From Halomicroarcula saliterrae (GTDB lineage Archaea > Halobacteriota > Halobacteria > Halobacteriales > Haloarculaceae), in the NCBI RefSeq assembly GCF_031624395.1, contig NZ_JAMQON010000002.1, positions 558,001 through 622,000 of the forward strand: a stretch of 64,000 bases of DNA, read 5' to 3'. The notes below the pieces were generated by a model. It had not been told where the DNA came from. It saw only the letters and a program-made list of their open reading frames with translations, and searched no databases. The translations under genes were made by a program, and so were the position numbers. Positions 6,956 through 39,754 of this stretch are shown piece after piece. Every line of letters starts with the position of its first letter. Positions within the stretch are counted from its first letter, which is position 1.

Positions 6956-7489
6956 CTAGCGGAACTCCAGTTGCTTTAGCTTCCAGCCGCCCTCGAACAC
7001 GACGAGGCGAACGGTGTGGATGCCCCGCGGCAGGTCAACCGCGGTCGTGACCTCTTTCCAGTCGTACCAGCCGCCAGTCGACCCGAACTCGAACCGTCGG
7101 AGCGGGTCGTCGTCGACGACGACACCGAGGTCGCCGCCGCCGAAGCTGTCGGCCGCGGCGACGTGGATGGTCAGTTCGTACGTCCCGGCCTCCTGGATGT
7201 AGACGTCGTAGGCGAGCCACTCGTCGCTCGCGAGCCAGTCGATTTCGCCGTCGCCGCTGAGCGGGGTATCGACCGCGTTCCACCGGTCGGCGTGGTGGTA
7301 CTGGTGGTAGGCACCCACGCTGATGGTCCCGGGGACCTCGTGGCGCTCGATACCGGGCTGTTCGTGCGCCCCGTGGACCCGCCGGTCGCGGCCGCGACGC
7401 TCGCCGCCGCGCTGAACTACGCCGCCGTCAGGCTGTCTCGTCACTTCGGAGCGGCGGTCGTCTGGGTCCCCCATCGCTGAACTGTACAT
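6956..7489 (-). CDS. Lone CBM6-like carbohydrate-binding module
   Basis: Protein of 177 residues whose C-terminal 120 residues look like a family 6/35-type carbohydrate-binding beta-sandwich: EWLAYDVYIQEAGTYELTIH, a central FGGGDLGVVVDDD, then GGWYDWKEVTTAVDLPRGIHTVRL. The first 50 or so residues are Arg/Gly-rich, have no signal peptide, and do not look like folded sequence. So the module has neither an export signal nor a catalytic partner. It may be the remnant of a longer glycan-active enzyme, with the N-terminal part read out of its original frame. The start at 7489 is uncertain. Confidence 0.6.
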   Translation of the reverse strand: MYSSAMGDPDDRRSEVTRQPDGGVVQRGGERRGRDRRVHGAHEQPGIERHEVPGTISVGAYHQYHHADRWNAVDTPLSGDGEIDWLASDEWLAYDVYIQEAGTYELTIHVAAADSFGGGDLGVVVDDDPLRRFEFGSTGGWYDWKEVTTAVDLPRGIHTVRLVVFEGGWKLKQLEFR

Positions 7490-7717: not shown

Positions 7718-8965
7718 ATGGGACAAACCGATATCGAACACCTCGACGTGGCGGCCATCAGGGAGGAGTACCCCATCCTCCAGCGGGAGTTCGGTGGCGA
7801 GCAACTCGTCTATCTCGACAACGCGGCGACGACGCAGACGCCCGACCGAGTCGTCGACACCATCGCGGACTACTACCGACACACCAACGCCAACGTCCAC
7901 CGCGGCCTCCACCAGCTGAGCCAGGAGGCCTCCGTCGCCTACGAGGACGCCCACGACCGCGTCGCCGACTTTATCGGCGCCTCCGGCGGGCGTGAGGAGA
8001 TCGTCTTCACGAAGAACACCACCGAGAGCGAGAACCTCGTCGCCTACGCCTGGGGCCTGAACGAACTCGGCCCGGAGGACGAGGTCGTCCTCACCGAGAT
8101 GGAACACCACGCCTCGCTCGTGACGTGGCAGCAAATCTGCAAGAAGACCGGCGCCACCTGCCGCTACATCGAGGTTCAGGACGACGGCACGCTCGATATG
8201 GACCACGCCCACGAGCTCATCGGCGACGACACCGCCATGGTCAGCGTCGTCCACGTCTCGAACACGCTGGGGACGGTGAACCCCGTCTCCGAACTCGCGG
8301 ACATCGCCCACGACCACGACGCCTACATCTTCGTCGACGGCGCCCAGTCGGTGCCGAACCGACCCGTCGACGTGGAGGCCATCGACGCCGACTTCCTCGC
8401 GTTCTCCGGCCACAAGATGGCCGGACCGACCGGTATCGGCGTCCTCTACGGCAAGAAACACATCTTGGAGGAGATGGAGCCGTATCTGTTCGGCGGGATG
8501 ATGATAAACAAGGTCACCTTCGAGGACTCGACGTGGCACGAGCTCCCGTGGAAGTTCGAGGCCGGCACGCCCGTCATCTGTCAGGGCATCGCGCTGGCGG
8601 AGGCCTGTGACTACCTCGACGATATCGGCATGGATGCGATTCGCCGCCACGAGAACGAACTCGCCCAGTACGCCATCGAACAGCTGGAGGGCGAGGGCGA
8701 CATCGACATCCTCGGCCCGCCCGCCGGCGTCGAACGGGGCGGTCTGGTCTCTTTCAACCTGAACTCCGTCCACGCCCACGACCTCTCCTCGATTCTGAAC
8801 GACTCGGCCGTGGCCATCAGAGCGGGCGACCACTGTACCCAGCCGCTGCACGACAAGCTCGGCGTCCCGGCCTCCGCGCGAGCGTCCTTCTACGTCTACA
8901 ACACGAAAGAGGAAGTCGACAAGCTCGTGGAAGCGATAGACGACGCTCGGCAGCTGTTCGCGTAA
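7718..8965 (+). CDS. sufS: Cysteine desulfurase SufS
   Basis: PLP enzyme that removes sulfur from cysteine as a persulfide for Fe-S cluster assembly. The 415 residues are full length for group II (SufS/CsdA) desulfurases. K233 in SGHKMAGPTG is the Schiff-base lysine, and C373 in RAGDHCTQPLHDKLG is the persulfide cysteine. VYLDNAATTQ near residue 31 is the usual N-terminal motif. Its natural partner sufU (12284) is downstream on the same strand but separated by a minus-strand gene. A strong palindrome sits in the promoter. Confidence 0.96.
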   Translation: MGQTDIEHLDVAAIREEYPILQREFGGEQLVYLDNAATTQTPDRVVDTIADYYRHTNANVHRGLHQLSQEASVAYEDAHDRVADFIGASGGREEIVFTKNTTESENLVAYAWGLNELGPEDEVVLTEMEHHASLVTWQQICKKTGATCRYIEVQDDGTLDMDHAHELIGDDTAMVSVVHVSNTLGTVNPVSELADIAHDHDAYIFVDGAQSVPNRPVDVEAIDADFLAFSGHKMAGPTGIGVLYGKKHILEEMEPYLFGGMMINKVTFEDSTWHELPWKFEAGTPVICQGIALAEACDYLDDIGMDAIRRHENELAQYAIEQLEGEGDIDILGPPAGVERGGLVSFNLNSVHAHDLSSILNDSAVAIRAGDHCTQPLHDKLGVPASARASFYVYNTKEEVDKLVEAIDDARQLFA

Positions 8966-9072
8966 GGCGAGGGACGCGACTGTACGGAGCGGCCCTCGAA
9001 AGGAGCGGTGGAACCGCGAGCAGGGAGTGTCGTCGCCCATCGACGACGTTCTCGGTGAACGGAGTGAGCCGA

Positions 9073-9110
9073 GAGCCAGCGAGACGAGTGAAACGAGTCT
9101 CGCCAGGCTC
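9073..9110. terminator. Stem-loop between convergent sufS and G8 gene
   Basis: GAGCC (9073-9077) and GCGAGAC (9079-9085) pair with GTCTCGC (9097-9103) and GGCTC (9106-9110), giving a 12-bp interrupted stem with an 11-nt loop GAGTGAAACGA. It lies in the 198-nt gap between two converging genes and could end transcription from both sides. There is no T-run. The loop word GAGTGAAACGA resembles hairpin repeats scattered in haloarchaeal intergenic DNA. Confidence 0.45.
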
Positions 9111-9163
9111 GGCAGCCGTTCGCGTCGCCGTCTGCAGTCGTCATTGGCCTGAGAGACCGTAAC

Positions 9164-11935
9164 TCACCGAACGAACACGGTGTACATCTTGTACGTGTCC
9201 GGACAGCCGCCGAGCCACGTCGTCCCAGCGTCGACCGATTTCCTGAACACCTGTCGGGTGCCGTCGTCGGTACCGATGGAGTCGCCGGTGTCGGTCCAGT
9301 CGTCGAGCCACGCCGGCCTCGACTCGGCGTCGTAGGCGACGAACACGTCGGCCGGCTCGGCGAGGTCGAGCCGGTAGCCCGACGGCCGCTCGATGCCGTT
9401 GTCCCCCTTCTCCGGGCGGAGGTAGGTGAGCCCGGTGTACTTGCCGGGCACGGCCCTGAACCGGGCGTCGTCGTAGACGTAGAGCCGTTCGCCCTGGTCG
9501 AGGGTCCCGAATTCGTAGACGGAGCCCTCGGCCGACTCGACCGCGCGGAGCGGGCCCTCCGTCTCGGTGCTGCCCGAACTGCCGCCGGCGAAGCCACCGA
9601 CCACGTCCGACCGACGGCCCGCGTCGTCGGGCAGCGGTTGCCCCTCGACGGCGAGGCCGAACTCGTTCGACAGCTCGCGGTTCGATTTCCCGACGAACTC
9701 GGCCGGCGAGGCCTCCGTCAGGTCGCCCATGGCGTCCGTCCCGGCGTCACCGAGGTCGGCCTCGGTCGGATACGGGACGACGTCGGGGCGCTGGCTGTCG
9801 AAGTAAAGGGGCGTGCCGTCGAGTTCGACGCCGCCCGCCGGCGAGAAGACGCCGTAAATGTCGTCGTCAAGGTTCGTCCGCATGAACACCGAGGCGCGGC
9901 CGCCCTCGCCGAAGGTCACGTCCTCGATACGGACGTGCTGGGCGGGCGTCCAGCGGCGGTCCGTGCCGCCGCCGATGACGTGGACGTCGACGTCGTTGTC
10001 GAGCCGGCCGCCGGTGATGGGGCTCTCCCCGCGCGGTGGCGCGCGGATGCCGGTGAACCACCCCTCGATATCGGGGTTCTCGACACGGAGGTTCTGCGGG
10101 GCGTGGTTGCGGTTGATGCCGACGCCGCGGTGGCCGCCGGCGCCGTCGACGAGCGTCGGGTTCCGGACGACGACGTTTGCGCTGTACCGTATCGAGATAC
10201 CGTTCTGGCCGCCCTGCGCGCCCCGGCCGTTGGGCACCCGGCGGCTGTCCCACGGGCTGTAGTGGGCGCCGACGTTGAACGCGGTGAACTCGTCGACGAC
10301 GCTGTAGTGCTCGACCTCGTCGTGGGCGTCGGCGAAGCGGTGCCGGGAGATGTCTACGCCGCCGCCCGAGGCGAACGCGGTGTTGCCCGAGAACGAGCGG
10401 AGCTTCACCAGCGTGGAGGGGACCGCGCCGTCGGTGACCGCGTCGGACTGCAGCAGGCGGTCCTGCCCCGAGACGTTCTCGACGGGGAAGTTCGCGAAGT
10501 CGACGGTGATGCCCGAGAACCGTTCGGGCGCCATCTGCTCGTCAGGTTTCGGTCGGGTCCACCAGACGAAGCCGTGGTGGCGGTGGCCGGCGGCGACGTT
10601 GTCGTCGACGGCGACGCCCGGGCTCTGGAGCCAGAAGCCGTAGCCGCCGTGGCCGAAGTCGTCGGTGGCGCCCTCGCGGCCCTCGTGGAACTGCCGGCCG
10701 TCGGGGACGCCGCCGGTGCCGGTCGAGCGCAGCGCGAAGTTGCGCTCGAAGGAGCCTATCTCGTTGCCGACTTCGGCGACGAAGCCCGCGCCGAACACGT
10801 CGTGAGAGACGTTGTCGCGGAAGGCGACGTTGCTATGGTGGTTGACGTAGCCCCAGCCCGGGCTGCCGTCGACGACGCAGCCCTCGACGACGCGGGGCGC
10901 AGTGCTCGCATCGATGCCCGTCCGGTGGAAGTGACAGGCGTAGCGGGCCTTCGGGTTCGGCGTGTCGGGCTCCGGTGGCGTGCCGTTTTCCGGGTTCGTC
11001 ACCGGGCGGGACTTGTCGGTCCGGCCCAGCGAGTCGAAGGCGGCGTGCTGGACCCGCACGTCCGTCGTCATGAACATCACGTGGCCGCGCCGTTTCGTCG
11101 CCTCCGAGGCCGACCGGAGGGTCACGTTGCGGTCCATCGCGGCGACGTAGGCGTCGAACTCCTCGCGCGGCGGCACGTGGTCGTGGGTCAGCGCCCCGTC
11201 GAGGTCGACCGTCGAACCCGAGACGCCGGCGACGGTCACCGACTCGTCACGGTTCTCGTCGGGCGTGACACCGGCGACCACGAGCGAATCGCCCTCGGCC
11301 CAGTCGGTCGGGCGCTCGGCGAGCGTTAGCGAGCTATCGCCGGCCGACGGCGGTGTCGCCCGCGCCCACGGCGTCCGTTCGGCGCCGGCGATTCGCACCG
11401 TCGACCCGGGGAGCGCGAGCAGGCCGCGGCTCACCCGTTCGGGGTCCCACGCTTCGTCGATCGCGCCGTCGTCGGTGAACTCGACGACGGCGCCGGCGCC
11501 GCGCTGGACCGGCTGCTCCGGCGTCCCGAGTTCGAGCGTCCCGGTCCCGGCGACGACCATCGTATCGACCAGCAGTCGCGTCGGCGCCGACGGGTCGACC
11601 CGCAGCCGGCCGTCGACCCGGACGGTCTTGAGCGCGGCGTCGAGCTCGCCCGCGAGTGTGACGGTCGTCCCCTCCGGAATCAGGACGCGGGCGCCGTCGC
11701 CCGGCACCGACGCGTTCCAGCTCCCGCCCTCGGCCCAGTTGCCGCCGGTCGCGCGGTGGGTGACCTGGTCGTCGGAAACGAGCCGTGCGATGTGGTCGTG
11801 GTCCGACAGTGAGTTCGCGCCAGCGCCCAGTAGCCGCTCTCGCTGCGTGTACGCTCCGCCCGCGAGCGTGACGCCGACGCCGCCGGCCGCAGCGCCTTTC
11901 AGAAACGTCCGTCTGGACGACCCCTTCTCCGACAT
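9164..11935 (-). CDS. Secreted G8-domain / parallel beta-helix protein, CEMIP/TMEM2-like
   Basis: Protein of 923 residues starting MSEKGSSRRTFLKGAAAGG, a Tat signal (start chosen at 11935; an in-frame ATG 18 nt upstream only adds six residues). Residues about 65-190 match the G8 domain: W-x-x-x-x-W, VPGDGARVLIPEGTTVTL, then a beta-rich stretch. The segment DWAEGDSLVVAG, NVTLRSAS, GHVMFM, VRVQHAAFDSLG and RYACHFHRTG (H335, H337) follows the motif order of animal CEMIP and TMEM2 (compare RYPIHFH), which depolymerise hyaluronan. Beta-helix repeats run to about 690. A C-terminal domain (about 805-923) is unassigned. Polysaccharide cleavage is inferred, not shown. Confidence 0.85.
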   Translation of the reverse strand: MSEKGSSRRTFLKGAAAGGVGVTLAGGAYTQRERLLGAGANSLSDHDHIARLVSDDQVTHRATGGNWAEGGSWNASVPGDGARVLIPEGTTVTLAGELDAALKTVRVDGRLRVDPSAPTRLLVDTMVVAGTGTLELGTPEQPVQRGAGAVVEFTDDGAIDEAWDPERVSRGLLALPGSTVRIAGAERTPWARATPPSAGDSSLTLAERPTDWAEGDSLVVAGVTPDENRDESVTVAGVSGSTVDLDGALTHDHVPPREEFDAYVAAMDRNVTLRSASEATKRRGHVMFMTTDVRVQHAAFDSLGRTDKSRPVTNPENGTPPEPDTPNPKARYACHFHRTGIDASTAPRVVEGCVVDGSPGWGYVNHHSNVAFRDNVSHDVFGAGFVAEVGNEIGSFERNFALRSTGTGGVPDGRQFHEGREGATDDFGHGGYGFWLQSPGVAVDDNVAAGHRHHGFVWWTRPKPDEQMAPERFSGITVDFANFPVENVSGQDRLLQSDAVTDGAVPSTLVKLRSFSGNTAFASGGGVDISRHRFADAHDEVEHYSVVDEFTAFNVGAHYSPWDSRRVPNGRGAQGGQNGISIRYSANVVVRNPTLVDGAGGHRGVGINRNHAPQNLRVENPDIEGWFTGIRAPPRGESPITGGRLDNDVDVHVIGGGTDRRWTPAQHVRIEDVTFGEGGRASVFMRTNLDDDIYGVFSPAGGVELDGTPLYFDSQRPDVVPYPTEADLGDAGTDAMGDLTEASPAEFVGKSNRELSNEFGLAVEGQPLPDDAGRRSDVVGGFAGGSSGSTETEGPLRAVESAEGSVYEFGTLDQGERLYVYDDARFRAVPGKYTGLTYLRPEKGDNGIERPSGYRLDLAEPADVFVAYDAESRPAWLDDWTDTGDSIGTDDGTRQVFRKSVDAGTTWLGGCPDTYKMYTVFVR

Positions 11936-12283
11936 TCTGTTCGCCCAATCCACGGACGGAAAGATAAGTGTGTGGGCCGGCGGCAGCGCTGTCCAGACGC
12001 GTCCGACAGAGTGGTTCCAGCGCTATCCAGACACGTCCGACAGAGTGGTGGCCGGGAGCGGCCGACATGGCCGCGACCCGGGGAAGGGCAGGGTAACAGT
12101 GACCAGCATACTGCGCTTCACGCGCAGTTTCCACGGCCGCGAACGCGATGGGCGGCCGCCTCTATCGCCCGCGTTTTTGCCGCCAGGGTGCCCGCAGCGA
12201 GCCTACGGCTCGCGAGCGCACCCGACGAAGGGAAAGGTGGAAGCGAACGCTTTTCAGCGTCTGCGCCGTATGATGGTTCAACA
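11936..12283. other. Intergenic region between G8 gene and sufU
   Basis: This 348-nt gap has no convincing gene. It holds a pair of 32-bp direct repeats (11984-12049) and a perfect 7-bp hairpin GCGAGCC-TAC-GGCTCGC at 12197-12213. It must also contain the divergent promoters of the G8 gene and sufU. Confidence 0.6.
11984..12049. repeat. Two tandem 32-bp direct repeats
   Basis: Copies at 11984-12015 and 12018-12049 begin CAGCGCT and end GACAGAGTGGT. They differ at two positions and have a period of 34 bp, close to three helical turns. They lie just upstream of the G8 gene start (11935). Similar helical phasing would suit a protein that binds two sites on one face of DNA. Confidence 0.75.
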
Positions 12284-12712
12284 ATGGGTATCGGAGGCTC
12301 CGACATGTACCGGCAGCAGATTCTCGAGCACTACAAGAACCCCCGCAACACCGGGGAGATCGAGAATCCGACGTTCACCCACGTGGGCGAGAACCCGATG
12401 TGCGGTGACGAAATCCGGATGGACGTGGTGTTGAGCGAGGACGAGGAGACCATCGAGCGGGTCGCCTTCCGCGGGGACGGCTGTGCCATCTCCCAGGCCT
12501 CGGCGTCGATGCTCAGCGAGCGGCTCCACGGGATGGGCGTCGAGGAGCTGCGGGCGCTGGACCGCGACGACATCGTCGACATGCTCGGGGTCGACATCTC
12601 GCCGATGCGTATCAAGTGCGCAGTCCTGGCGGAGAAGGTCGCCCAGGACGGCGCGGACATCTACTTCGACGAGTTGGACATCGACCGGACGACCACCGAA
12701 GACGACGACTGA
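12284..12712 (+). CDS. sufU: Fe-S assembly sulfurtransferase SufU
   Basis: IscU/NifU-type protein that takes persulfide sulfur from SufS. The 142 residues carry the zinc/cluster ligands C40 (NPMCGD), D42, C67 (GDGCAIS) and C112 (RIKCAVLA). The spacing between C67 and C112 includes the extra loop typical of SufU rather than IscU, which suggests sulfur transfer through zinc rather than a classical scaffold. The N-terminus MYRQQILEHYKNPRN is diagnostic; ATG 12284 precedes it by seven residues, and an internal ATG at residue 8 is an alternative start. Confidence 0.94.
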   Translation: MGIGGSDMYRQQILEHYKNPRNTGEIENPTFTHVGENPMCGDEIRMDVVLSEDEETIERVAFRGDGCAISQASASMLSERLHGMGVEELRALDRDDIVDMLGVDISPMRIKCAVLAEKVAQDGADIYFDELDIDRTTTEDDD

Positions 12713-38251: not shown

Positions 38252-39754
38252 ATGACTGATACGGACGGGTCCAACGTTCTCTTCGTCGTCCTGGACACGG
38301 TCCGGAAAGACCGGCTATCCGTCTACGACGAGGACCGCGAGACGACACCGCACCTCGCAGAGTTCGCCGCGGAGGCGACCGTCTTCGACGGCGCCGTCGC
38401 GCCGGCCCCGTGGACGCTGCCGGTCCACGCCTCGCTGTTTACCGGGCTCTATCCCAGCGAGCATGAGGCCACACAGGAAGACCCCTATCTGGAGGGGGCG
38501 ACGACGCTCGCCGAGTCGCTGTCGGCGGCGGGCTACGAAACCGCCTGCTACTCGTCGAACGCCTGGATCACGAGCTACACGAACCTCACCGCGGGCTTTG
38601 ATCACCACGACAACTTCTTCCAGATAATGCCCAGCGAGCTCCTCTCCGGGCCGCTCGCGAGCGTCTGGAAGACGATGAACGACAACGACACGCTCCGCAG
38701 CGTCGCCGACCGGATGGTCCAGCTTGGCAACAAGATACACGAGCATCTCGCCGAGGGCGGTGGCGGGGACACGAAGACGCCACAGGTCATCGACAAGACC
38801 ATCGAGTTCATCGACGGGAGCGACGACTTCTTCGCGTTCATCAATCTGATGGACGCCCACCTCCCATACCACCCGCCCGAGGAGTACGCCGAACGGTTCG
38901 CGCCCGGCGTCGATTCGACGGACGTGTGCCAGAACTCGAAGGAGTTTAACTGCGGCGCCCGCGATATCGACGACGACGAGTGGGACGACATCAGAGGCCT
39001 CTACGACGCCGAACTGGCCCACATGGACGACCAGCTCGACCGGCTGTTCACCCACCTGAAAGAGACGGACCAGTGGGACGACACCACCGTCGTCGTCGCG
39101 GCTGACCACGGCGAGCTGTTCGGCGAACACGACCTGTACGGCCACGAGTTCGGCATCTACGACCCGCTCGTCAACGTCCCGCTCGTGGTCAAACACCCCG
39201 ACCTCACGGCCGGCCGCGACGACGAGACGGTCGTCGAACTCGTCGACCTCTATCACACCGTCCTCGACGCGGCGGGCGCGACGGGCCAGGGCGAGGCCCT
39301 GCAGTCGACCCGCTCGCTGCTGTCGGCCGACTACCGCGAGTTCGCCGGCGAGATGGGCGGCGTCCCGCGGGGTGAGGTCGGCTTCGTCGAGTACCACCAG
39401 CCCGTCGTCGAGCTGCGCCAGCTGGAAGGGAAAGCCAGCGGGGCCGGTATCGAACTCGACGAGCAGTCCCGCTTTTACTCCCGGATGGGCGCGGCACGGA
39501 CCGTCGACGAGAAGTACATCCACTGCACGCGCATCCCCGACGAGGCCTACGACGTGGGGCACGACCCGGGCGAGACCGAGAACCTGGTCGGCACCGACGC
39601 GGAGCCCGAGGCGCTCGCCGACGCCCTGTTCGAGTTCGTCGACTCGGTCGACGCCACCTGGCCCGACGAGGCCGACGGGGCCGACGGCGACGTGCTGGGC
39701 GAGATGGACGACGAGACGAAGGACCGACTGCAGGACCTCGGGTACATCGACTGA
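38252..39754 (+). CDS. Alkaline-phosphatase-superfamily protein, sulfatase-like but with Thr nucleophile
   Basis: Protein of 500 residues of the sulfatase fold: NVLFVVLDTVRKDRLSVY (D15), PAPWTLPVHASLFTGLYPSEH (about 51-71), MDAHLPYHPPEEY (about 200) and VAADHGELFGEHDLYGHE (D285, H286). In true sulfatases the second motif is C/S-x-P-x-R; here it is T55-L-P-V-H59, so the formylglycine residue and the arginine are missing. A threonine nucleophile is used by phosphoglycerol and phosphoethanolamine transferases. I suggest a phosphotransferase on surface glycans or lipids. No signal or membrane helix is visible. Confidence 0.85.
   Translation: MTDTDGSNVLFVVLDTVRKDRLSVYDEDRETTPHLAEFAAEATVFDGAVAPAPWTLPVHASLFTGLYPSEHEATQEDPYLEGATTLAESLSAAGYETACYSSNAWITSYTNLTAGFDHHDNFFQIMPSELLSGPLASVWKTMNDNDTLRSVADRMVQLGNKIHEHLAEGGGGDTKTPQVIDKTIEFIDGSDDFFAFINLMDAHLPYHPPEEYAERFAPGVDSTDVCQNSKEFNCGARDIDDDEWDDIRGLYDAELAHMDDQLDRLFTHLKETDQWDDTTVVVAADHGELFGEHDLYGHEFGIYDPLVNVPLVVKHPDLTAGRDDETVVELVDLYHTVLDAAGATGQGEALQSTRSLLSADYREFAGEMGGVPRGEVGFVEYHQPVVELRQLEGKASGAGIELDEQSRFYSRMGAARTVDEKYIHCTRIPDEAYDVGHDPGETENLVGTDAEPEALADALFEFVDSVDATWPDEADGADGDVLGEMDDETKDRLQDLGYID

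Follow-up and report, generated by a model that had tools for sequence, protein, structure and literature searches.

The window, that is the whole 64-kb stretch of DNA analysed here, carries between sufS and sufU a gene on the opposite strand that encodes the secreted β-helix protein P0001 (Table 1). The reading frame was taken from an ATG codon; a GTG further upstream would extend the product by 6 residues. The N-terminal Tat signal scored 19.4 bits with the NCBIfam model TIGR01409 (cut-off 16.7) and 21.5 bits with PF10518, slightly below the cut-off of 22.7, and most homologues of P0001 also have a twin-arginine motif close to the N-terminus. The G8 domain was detected with 53.6 bits against a curated cut-off of 22.9 and the CEMIP_beta-hel domain with 40.6 bits against 27.3. 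The sequence-only reading had described a Tat signal, a G8 domain and a series of motifs in the order found in CEMIP and TMEM2, and all three were borne out. The motifs start at residues 212 (WAEGDSLVV), 270 (NVTLRSAS), 284 (GHVMFM) and 331 (RYACHFHRTG, which includes H335 and H337), and their order was reproduced in the profile alignment to TMEM2 described below. A match was found in 25 of 392 genomes of the order.

Table 1. Features of the P0001 gene and its surroundings, numbered along the window.
Feature	Position	Strand	Basis
G8/CEMIP-like secreted β-helix protein P0001, 923 aa	9164..11935	(-)	ORF, Pfam G8 and CEMIP_beta-hel
Tat signal, residues 1-30, SRRTFLK at residue 7	11846..11935	(-)	TIGR01409 and PF10518
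G8 domain, residues 72-192	11360..11722	(-)	Pfam PF10162, E = 2.7e-14
Segment with WAEGD motif, E231 and H253, residues ~200-262	11150..11338	(-)	Profile alignment to 8c6i
CEMIP β-helix domain, residues 330-469	10529..10948	(-)	Pfam PF24606, E = 3.1e-10; core model
HFH motif H335-F336-H337, candidate active-site residues	10925..10933	(-)	Alignment invariance
E388 codon, invariant	10772..10774	(-)	Alignment of 39 proteins
C-terminal domain, residues ~793-923	9167..9559	(-)	Profile match to 6hpd
sufS, neighbour outside the system	7718..8965	(+)	Aminotran_5, 1.2e-143
sufU, neighbour outside the system	12284..12712	(+)	NifU_N, 1.8e-28
Left conserved flank, downstream of sufS	9037..9123	(+)	Similarity to sufS-sufU gaps occupied by other genes in other species
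Right conserved flank, upstream of sufU	12047..12092	(+)	Conservation at the edge of the variable segment

Two conserved flanks enclose the segment between sufS and sufU that varies among species. The gap between the two suf genes measured 93 to 3,683 bases in the species compared and its gene content differed, with aldo/keto reductase-like, catalase-peroxidase-like and cupin-like genes recognized when the sequences were read by eye. The G8 gene was missing from this site in 28 of the 30 genus members examined around sufU, and in the two genomes closest by sufU (G387, 96%, and G363, 94%) the gap is short and lacks the gene. An orthologue with 82% identity occupies the identical spot in G301, and linkage to both sufS and sufU was also seen for the orthologues of Haloferax profundi, G196, G266 and G286. 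The position of the gene had previously been taken to suggest an insertion. The gap is indeed a variable spot, but a recent insertion private to this genome does not agree with the linkage of six out of nine orthologues to suf genes in carriers that span two families, and the linkage is therefore probably old. Either the gene has been lost many times after an early linkage, or it is moved by recombination acting in the flanks; support inside the orthologue clade (34-66 at the deeper nodes) is too low to decide between gain and loss. A mobile element carrying the gene was rejected, as there is no tRNA in the window, terminal repeats were not obvious and the 100-base left flank is single copy in its own genome. 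Phage or plasmid origin was likewise dismissed, with no match in a phage collection and only distant relatives on bacterial plasmids. We also considered as a partner the lone CBM6 protein encoded at 6956-7489 on the reverse strand, on the far side of sufS, and rejected it because it is also adjacent to sufS in genus members that lack the G8 gene. A functional tie of P0001 to Fe-S assembly is not evident.

The relationship of P0001 to proteins of known structure was examined with sequence profiles and predicted models. A phmmer search with the single P0001 sequence gave no match in the PDB. A profile of 24 haloarchaeal homologues matched one PDB entry only, the ectodomain of TMEM2, also called CEMIP2 or cell surface hyaluronidase (8c6i, E = 2e-10), and the blocks G8, WxxGD, RNV, GHxM, RYxxHFH and E..GxE were aligned in identical order; judged by sequence, a match with this motif order is far beyond chance. 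The AlphaFold model of full-length P0001 is confident in part only (pLDDT 58.6), and its top fold match in the PDB was again 8c6i (E = 6.5e-12). A model of the core, comprising residues 52-480, had a pLDDT of 80.4 and a pTM of 0.84 and also placed 8c6i at rank 1 (TM score, TMq, of 0.65; E = 1.5e-10), while all other structures listed in this search had a TMq of 0.28 or lower. Phage capsule depolymerases and GH110 ranked next after TMEM2, and the β-helix epimerases AlgE4 and AlgG took low places in the fold lists. Phage capsule depolymerases, GH110, GH55, GH87 and polygalacturonases all share with P0001 a right-handed parallel β-helix, which in these proteins acts on polysaccharides, but their match to the core fold is far weaker than that of TMEM2. 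Membership of the pectate lyase family, named earlier as an outcome that would speak against the relationship, was not seen: P0001 gave no pectate-lyase or GH28 Pfam match at E values up to 1, the polygalacturonases did not exceed a TMq of 0.28 and TMEM2 is the nearest fold. With the G8 and CEMIP_beta-hel domains, the fold and the register of the HxH motif and the glutamate all in agreement, P0001 belongs to the G8/CEMIP β-helix superfamily.

To place P0001 within this superfamily we built an alignment of 38 prokaryotic proteins, namely P0001 together with 27 from haloarchaea, 6 from bacteria and 4 from viral contigs, and added aligned pieces of TMEM2. A maximum-likelihood tree was computed from 405 columns, TMEM2 being represented by these pieces only. 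TMEM2, the Croceibacterium protein L132 and four proteins from haloarchaea with lengths of 715-847 residues (L023, L024, L026 and L027) were separated from the side of P0001 by a long branch with a UFBoot support of 100. The CEMIP_beta-hel scores of L024, L026 and L132 were 134, 141 and 268 bits, compared with 40.6 bits for P0001, and a single-sequence search with L024 matched 8c6i at 2.1e-33. The CEMIP-type group shares the G8 and CEMIP_beta-hel domains with P0001, and its haloarchaeal members have a twin-arginine motif. The P0001 subfamily carries the signatures LGRTDKS, SPGWG and NHHS, whereas the CEMIP-type proteins and TMEM2 have HGT and GQ instead. By these sequence comparisons P0001 is a member of a sister subfamily and not of the CEMIP/TMEM2 lineage proper. 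The tree placement, the scores of L024 and L026 and the match of L024 to 8c6i indicate that haloarchaea also possess true CEMIP-type proteins, of which P0001 is not one. Most of the Rhodobacterales plasmid proteins annotated as G8 domain-containing (from Leisingera, Ruegeria, Salipiger and Antarctobacter; 30-38% identity to P0001) share SPGWG and LGRTD with it; they differ in having extra domains (PA14, LamG and a type I secretion target) and in being encoded in biosynthesis clusters. The viral-contig relatives L034-L036 are distant, with 29-37% identity to P0001.

The archaeal proteins lack part of the TMEM2 ectodomain. Positions 197 and 205 of the profile correspond to residues 163 and 335 of the 8c6i chain, leaving out some 170 residues between the G8 domain and the WxxGD block, and lectin-like domain 1 of TMEM2 falls in this stretch. 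This domain holds R265, D273 and D286, and mutation there lowers the activity of TMEM2 (PMC10206443); the three residues have no counterpart in P0001. The WAEGD segment of P0001 aligns from residue 335 of the TMEM2 chain, just past the point of the lectin-like insert, from which we infer that it is the counterpart of the small β-sandwich of TMEM2. Domain X and the second lectin-like domain in the C-terminal part of TMEM2 were not covered, as there was no profile match in that part of 8c6i. The C-terminal domain of P0001 is different, and a profile of eight orthologues matched it to the C-terminal domain of the GH2 β-glucuronidase 6hpd (E = 1.2e-6), which was found at rank 27 in the fold search with the full-length model. 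The resemblance concerns the last ~125 residues of 6hpd; the GH2 catalytic domain is absent from P0001. We rejected the idea of a widespread haloarchaeal module, since the domain is limited to the orthologue clade, with short remnants and false matches besides. The earlier description of P0001 as CEMIP/TMEM2-like thus holds for homology, including the alignment of its HFH motif with the HFH of TMEM2, the G8 domain followed by a β-helix core and the order of the motifs. It does not extend to the subfamily, the lectin-like insert and the C-terminal parts, and P0001 has a Tat export signal whereas TMEM2 is membrane-anchored.

Eight polar residues of P0001 (E231, R269, H285, Y332, H335, H337, H366 and E388) were invariant in all 38 prokaryotic proteins and in TMEM2, and R331 (97%) and E392 (92%) were nearly so in the same alignment. 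In TMEM2 the equivalents of H335, H337, H366 and E388 are H550, H552, H585 and E608 by our own count, in which the human numbering was derived from the construct of PMC10206443 assuming a 23-residue tag. The core model places H285, H335/H337, H366 and E388 inside consecutive strands or at their ends, and the strand order suggests that these residues probably line up along a single side of the helix. Since the catalytic site of TMEM2 is not yet assigned (PMC10206443), the eight invariant residues identified by alignment are candidate active-site residues, and as such testable. The invariant histidines and glutamates could instead hold a structural metal.

Genes for carbohydrate-active enzymes do not adjoin the P0001 gene itself, and its genome gave no match for GH16, GH81, GH88 or PL8; all evidence from genomic context comes from paralogues and bacterial relatives with ~25-50% identity. 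Among the haloarchaeal paralogues, carbohydrate-binding modules occur in L021 (CBM6/35) and in the CEMIP-type L026 (CBM5/12), while L031 and L032 have PKD or PA14 domains. The paralogues of G246 and G315 adjoin genes for a malectin-domain GH16 and a GH81 as well as for a regulator of the TrmB type and an ABC transporter of the SBP5 type, in G315 with GH3 in addition, and the paralogue of G353 has a GH16 gene less than 1 kb away; these three surroundings look like β-1,3-glucan utilisation loci. The paralogues in G375, G268 and G005 are located near dTDP-sugar-type genes or glycosyltransferases. Six of the seven bacterial plasmid loci examined, all six from Rhodobacterales, have polysaccharide biosynthesis surroundings that include export proteins, glycosyltransferases or sulfotransferases, and GH16 was found in three of these. 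GH81 was present in 7 of 19 genomes with the P0001 subfamily and in 2 of 38 without it (Fisher p = 0.004), and the corresponding counts for GH16 were 4 of 19 and 1 of 38 (p = 0.04), in both cases with relatedness ignored.

On balance we favor the view that P0001 is a Tat-exported β-helix depolymerase, endo-acting and probably hydrolytic, for a polysaccharide that is either secreted or present in the environment, with the active site located among the invariant residues. Action on a polysaccharide is proposed because of the TMEM2 precedent, the carbohydrate-binding modules, the GH16, GH81 and sugar-gene neighbours, the 6hpd-like tail, the fold neighbours and the invariant residues taken together. 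After export by the Tat system the protein would work outside the cell. The polysaccharide would lie across the helix face on which H285, H335/H337, H366 and E388 follow on successive rungs, and the chain would be cut internally, probably by hydrolysis. The β-rich C-terminal domain may help to bind sugar or may pack against the helix. Either a foraging role or a role in processing the cell's own exopolysaccharide may apply. The precedent itself is disputed: degradation of hyaluronan by TMEM2 was described by one laboratory (PMC10474455), whereas another study could measure no hyaluronidase activity for the ectodomain (PMC10206443).

Three other explanations were weighed against this proposal. 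The closest to it is an enzyme with the exopolysaccharide or surface glycan of the cell itself as its substrate, which it would trim, release or epimerise instead of serving in foraging. This explanation overlaps with the depolymerase proposal, apart from where the substrate comes from and a possible epimerase chemistry. The six biosynthesis clusters of the bacterial relatives, the three genomes with paralogues near dTDP-sugar or glycosyltransferase genes and the presence of AlgE4 and AlgG low in the fold list are consistent with such a role, but other paralogues are found with transporters in uptake-and-degradation loci and the orthologues have no such genes beside them, so that we consider it rather less probable. 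Unlikely, in our opinion, is a non-enzymatic secreted protein with a carbohydrate-binding, adhesive or structural function. Beta-helix proteins are often adhesins, and the PKD, PA14 and CBM domains on the paralogues would suit such a function. The negative result with the TMEM2 ectodomain (PMC10206443) would suit it as well, but a purely structural role can hardly account for eight invariant polar residues, several of them on consecutive rungs, in archaea, bacteria and an animal protein, and the pairing of GH16 with the family in bacterial and archaeal clusters also argues for catalysis.

The sequence-only reading had proposed an enzyme for uronic-acid-rich polysaccharides. A lyase or hydrolase for such substrates, e.g. 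hyaluronan, would be in line with the homology to TMEM2 and CEMIP and with the β-glucuronidase-like tail, and members of the haloarchaeal genera Haloarcula and Natronoarchaeum are able to grow on hyaluronan and chondroitin (PMC13260240). In that work growth on hyaluronan is credited to a PL8 lyase, and G8 proteins are not mentioned (PMC13260240). Our PL8 search returned no match in the genomes tested, and none in any control either. A tie to uronate catabolism was sought through GH88 unsaturated-uronyl hydrolases, with a negative outcome: none of the eight orthologue-bearing genomes tested had a match above the cut-off, with Haloferax volcanii positive as a control. Above the cut-off, GH88 was also absent from all 12 tested genomes with the P0001 subfamily, whereas 8 of 18 genus members that lack the subfamily have it (p = 0.01). 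The lectin-like insert with the residues whose mutation lowers TMEM2 activity (PMC10206443) is missing as well. Because the relatives are found in β-1,3-glucan (with β-1,3-glucanases beside paralogues), dTDP-sugar and exopolysaccharide loci and not with uronate-degradation genes, the proposal is unsupported. We regard a uronic-acid substrate as improbable, less likely than had been held, and hyaluronan is probably not what the enzyme acts on.

The G8 and CEMIP_beta-hel families are already known, as is the annotation of bacterial proteins as G8 domain-containing. As far as our tools show, it is new that the haloarchaeal proteins fall into two lineages, that absence of the lectin insert is combined with a 6hpd-like tail, that the subfamily is tied to β-glucan and exopolysaccharide loci and that the invariant residues form a short list. 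A literature search that lay mostly outside subscription journals returned nothing relevant on archaeal G8 domains or on those of bacterial exopolysaccharide clusters. We tentatively suggest that TMEM2 and CEMIP might descend from widespread prokaryotic secreted polysaccharide depolymerases with an unrecognised common His/Glu catalytic center (H335, H337, H366 and E388), in which case the lectin-like insert could be an animal addition that grips hyaluronan. With relatives that lack lectin domains in two separate prokaryotic subfamilies, the candidate residues are narrowed to eight, and the lectin-free proteins offer simpler objects for testing the active-site question of TMEM2 and CEMIP. For the haloarchaea, the results show two lineages of the superfamily, one of the true CEMIP type and the other, that of P0001, occurring in contexts of polysaccharide degradation and surface sugars.

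Haloarchaea encode true CEMIP-type proteins, which group with animal TMEM2 and apart from the subfamily of the G8 protein located between sufS and sufU in the window. Four such proteins of 715-847 aa (L023, L024, L026 and L027) resemble TMEM2 much more closely than the window protein does, and they are better archaeal kin of the animal proteins than it is. In a single-sequence search L024 matched the TMEM2 ectodomain structure (PDB 8c6i) at 2.1e-33. L026 additionally carries CBM5/12 modules.

The sufS-sufU gap (window 8966-12283) is a variable spot in the genus. Among loci L087-L106 its size ranged from 93 bases to 3.7 kb and its cargo differed between genus members. The genomes G378 and G301, of which G301 has an orthologue at the same spot, carry two or three copies of the roughly 100-base flank that lies 3' of sufS. 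Short pieces comprising only the C-terminal domain of the window protein were found in G240 (L025) and G211 (L028) and look like decayed gene copies. The CBM6 protein adjoining sufS is kept in much of the genus and also in G286, where an orthologue is linked to suf genes; both the site and the stand-alone form are odd for a carbohydrate-binding module. The H. saliterrae genome contains eleven PF00884 matches, including the sulfatase-family gene of the window.

Coordinates of features in the window and in compared loci
Feature	Location	Remark
Small stand-alone CBM6 protein	window 6956-7489	no evident signal sequence
Sulfatase-family gene	window 38252-39754	PF00884, 1.2e-45
Tandem G8 proteins	L035 7599-13754	viral-labelled contig
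Split G8/calcium-binding gene pair, duplicated	L133 2260-8951	Leisingera plasmid

On Rhodobacterales plasmids (L127-L131, L133) G8 proteins were repeatedly included in exopolysaccharide biosynthesis clusters, often accompanied by GH16 and sulfotransferases. A literature search mostly outside subscription journals gave no description of G8 proteins in such Rhodobacterales clusters. In the haloarchaeal loci L054 and L055 a G8 protein occurs with GH81, GH16-malectin, TrmB and an SBP5 ABC transporter, with GH3 additionally present in L055; these are probable haloarchaeal beta-1,3-glucan utilisation loci.
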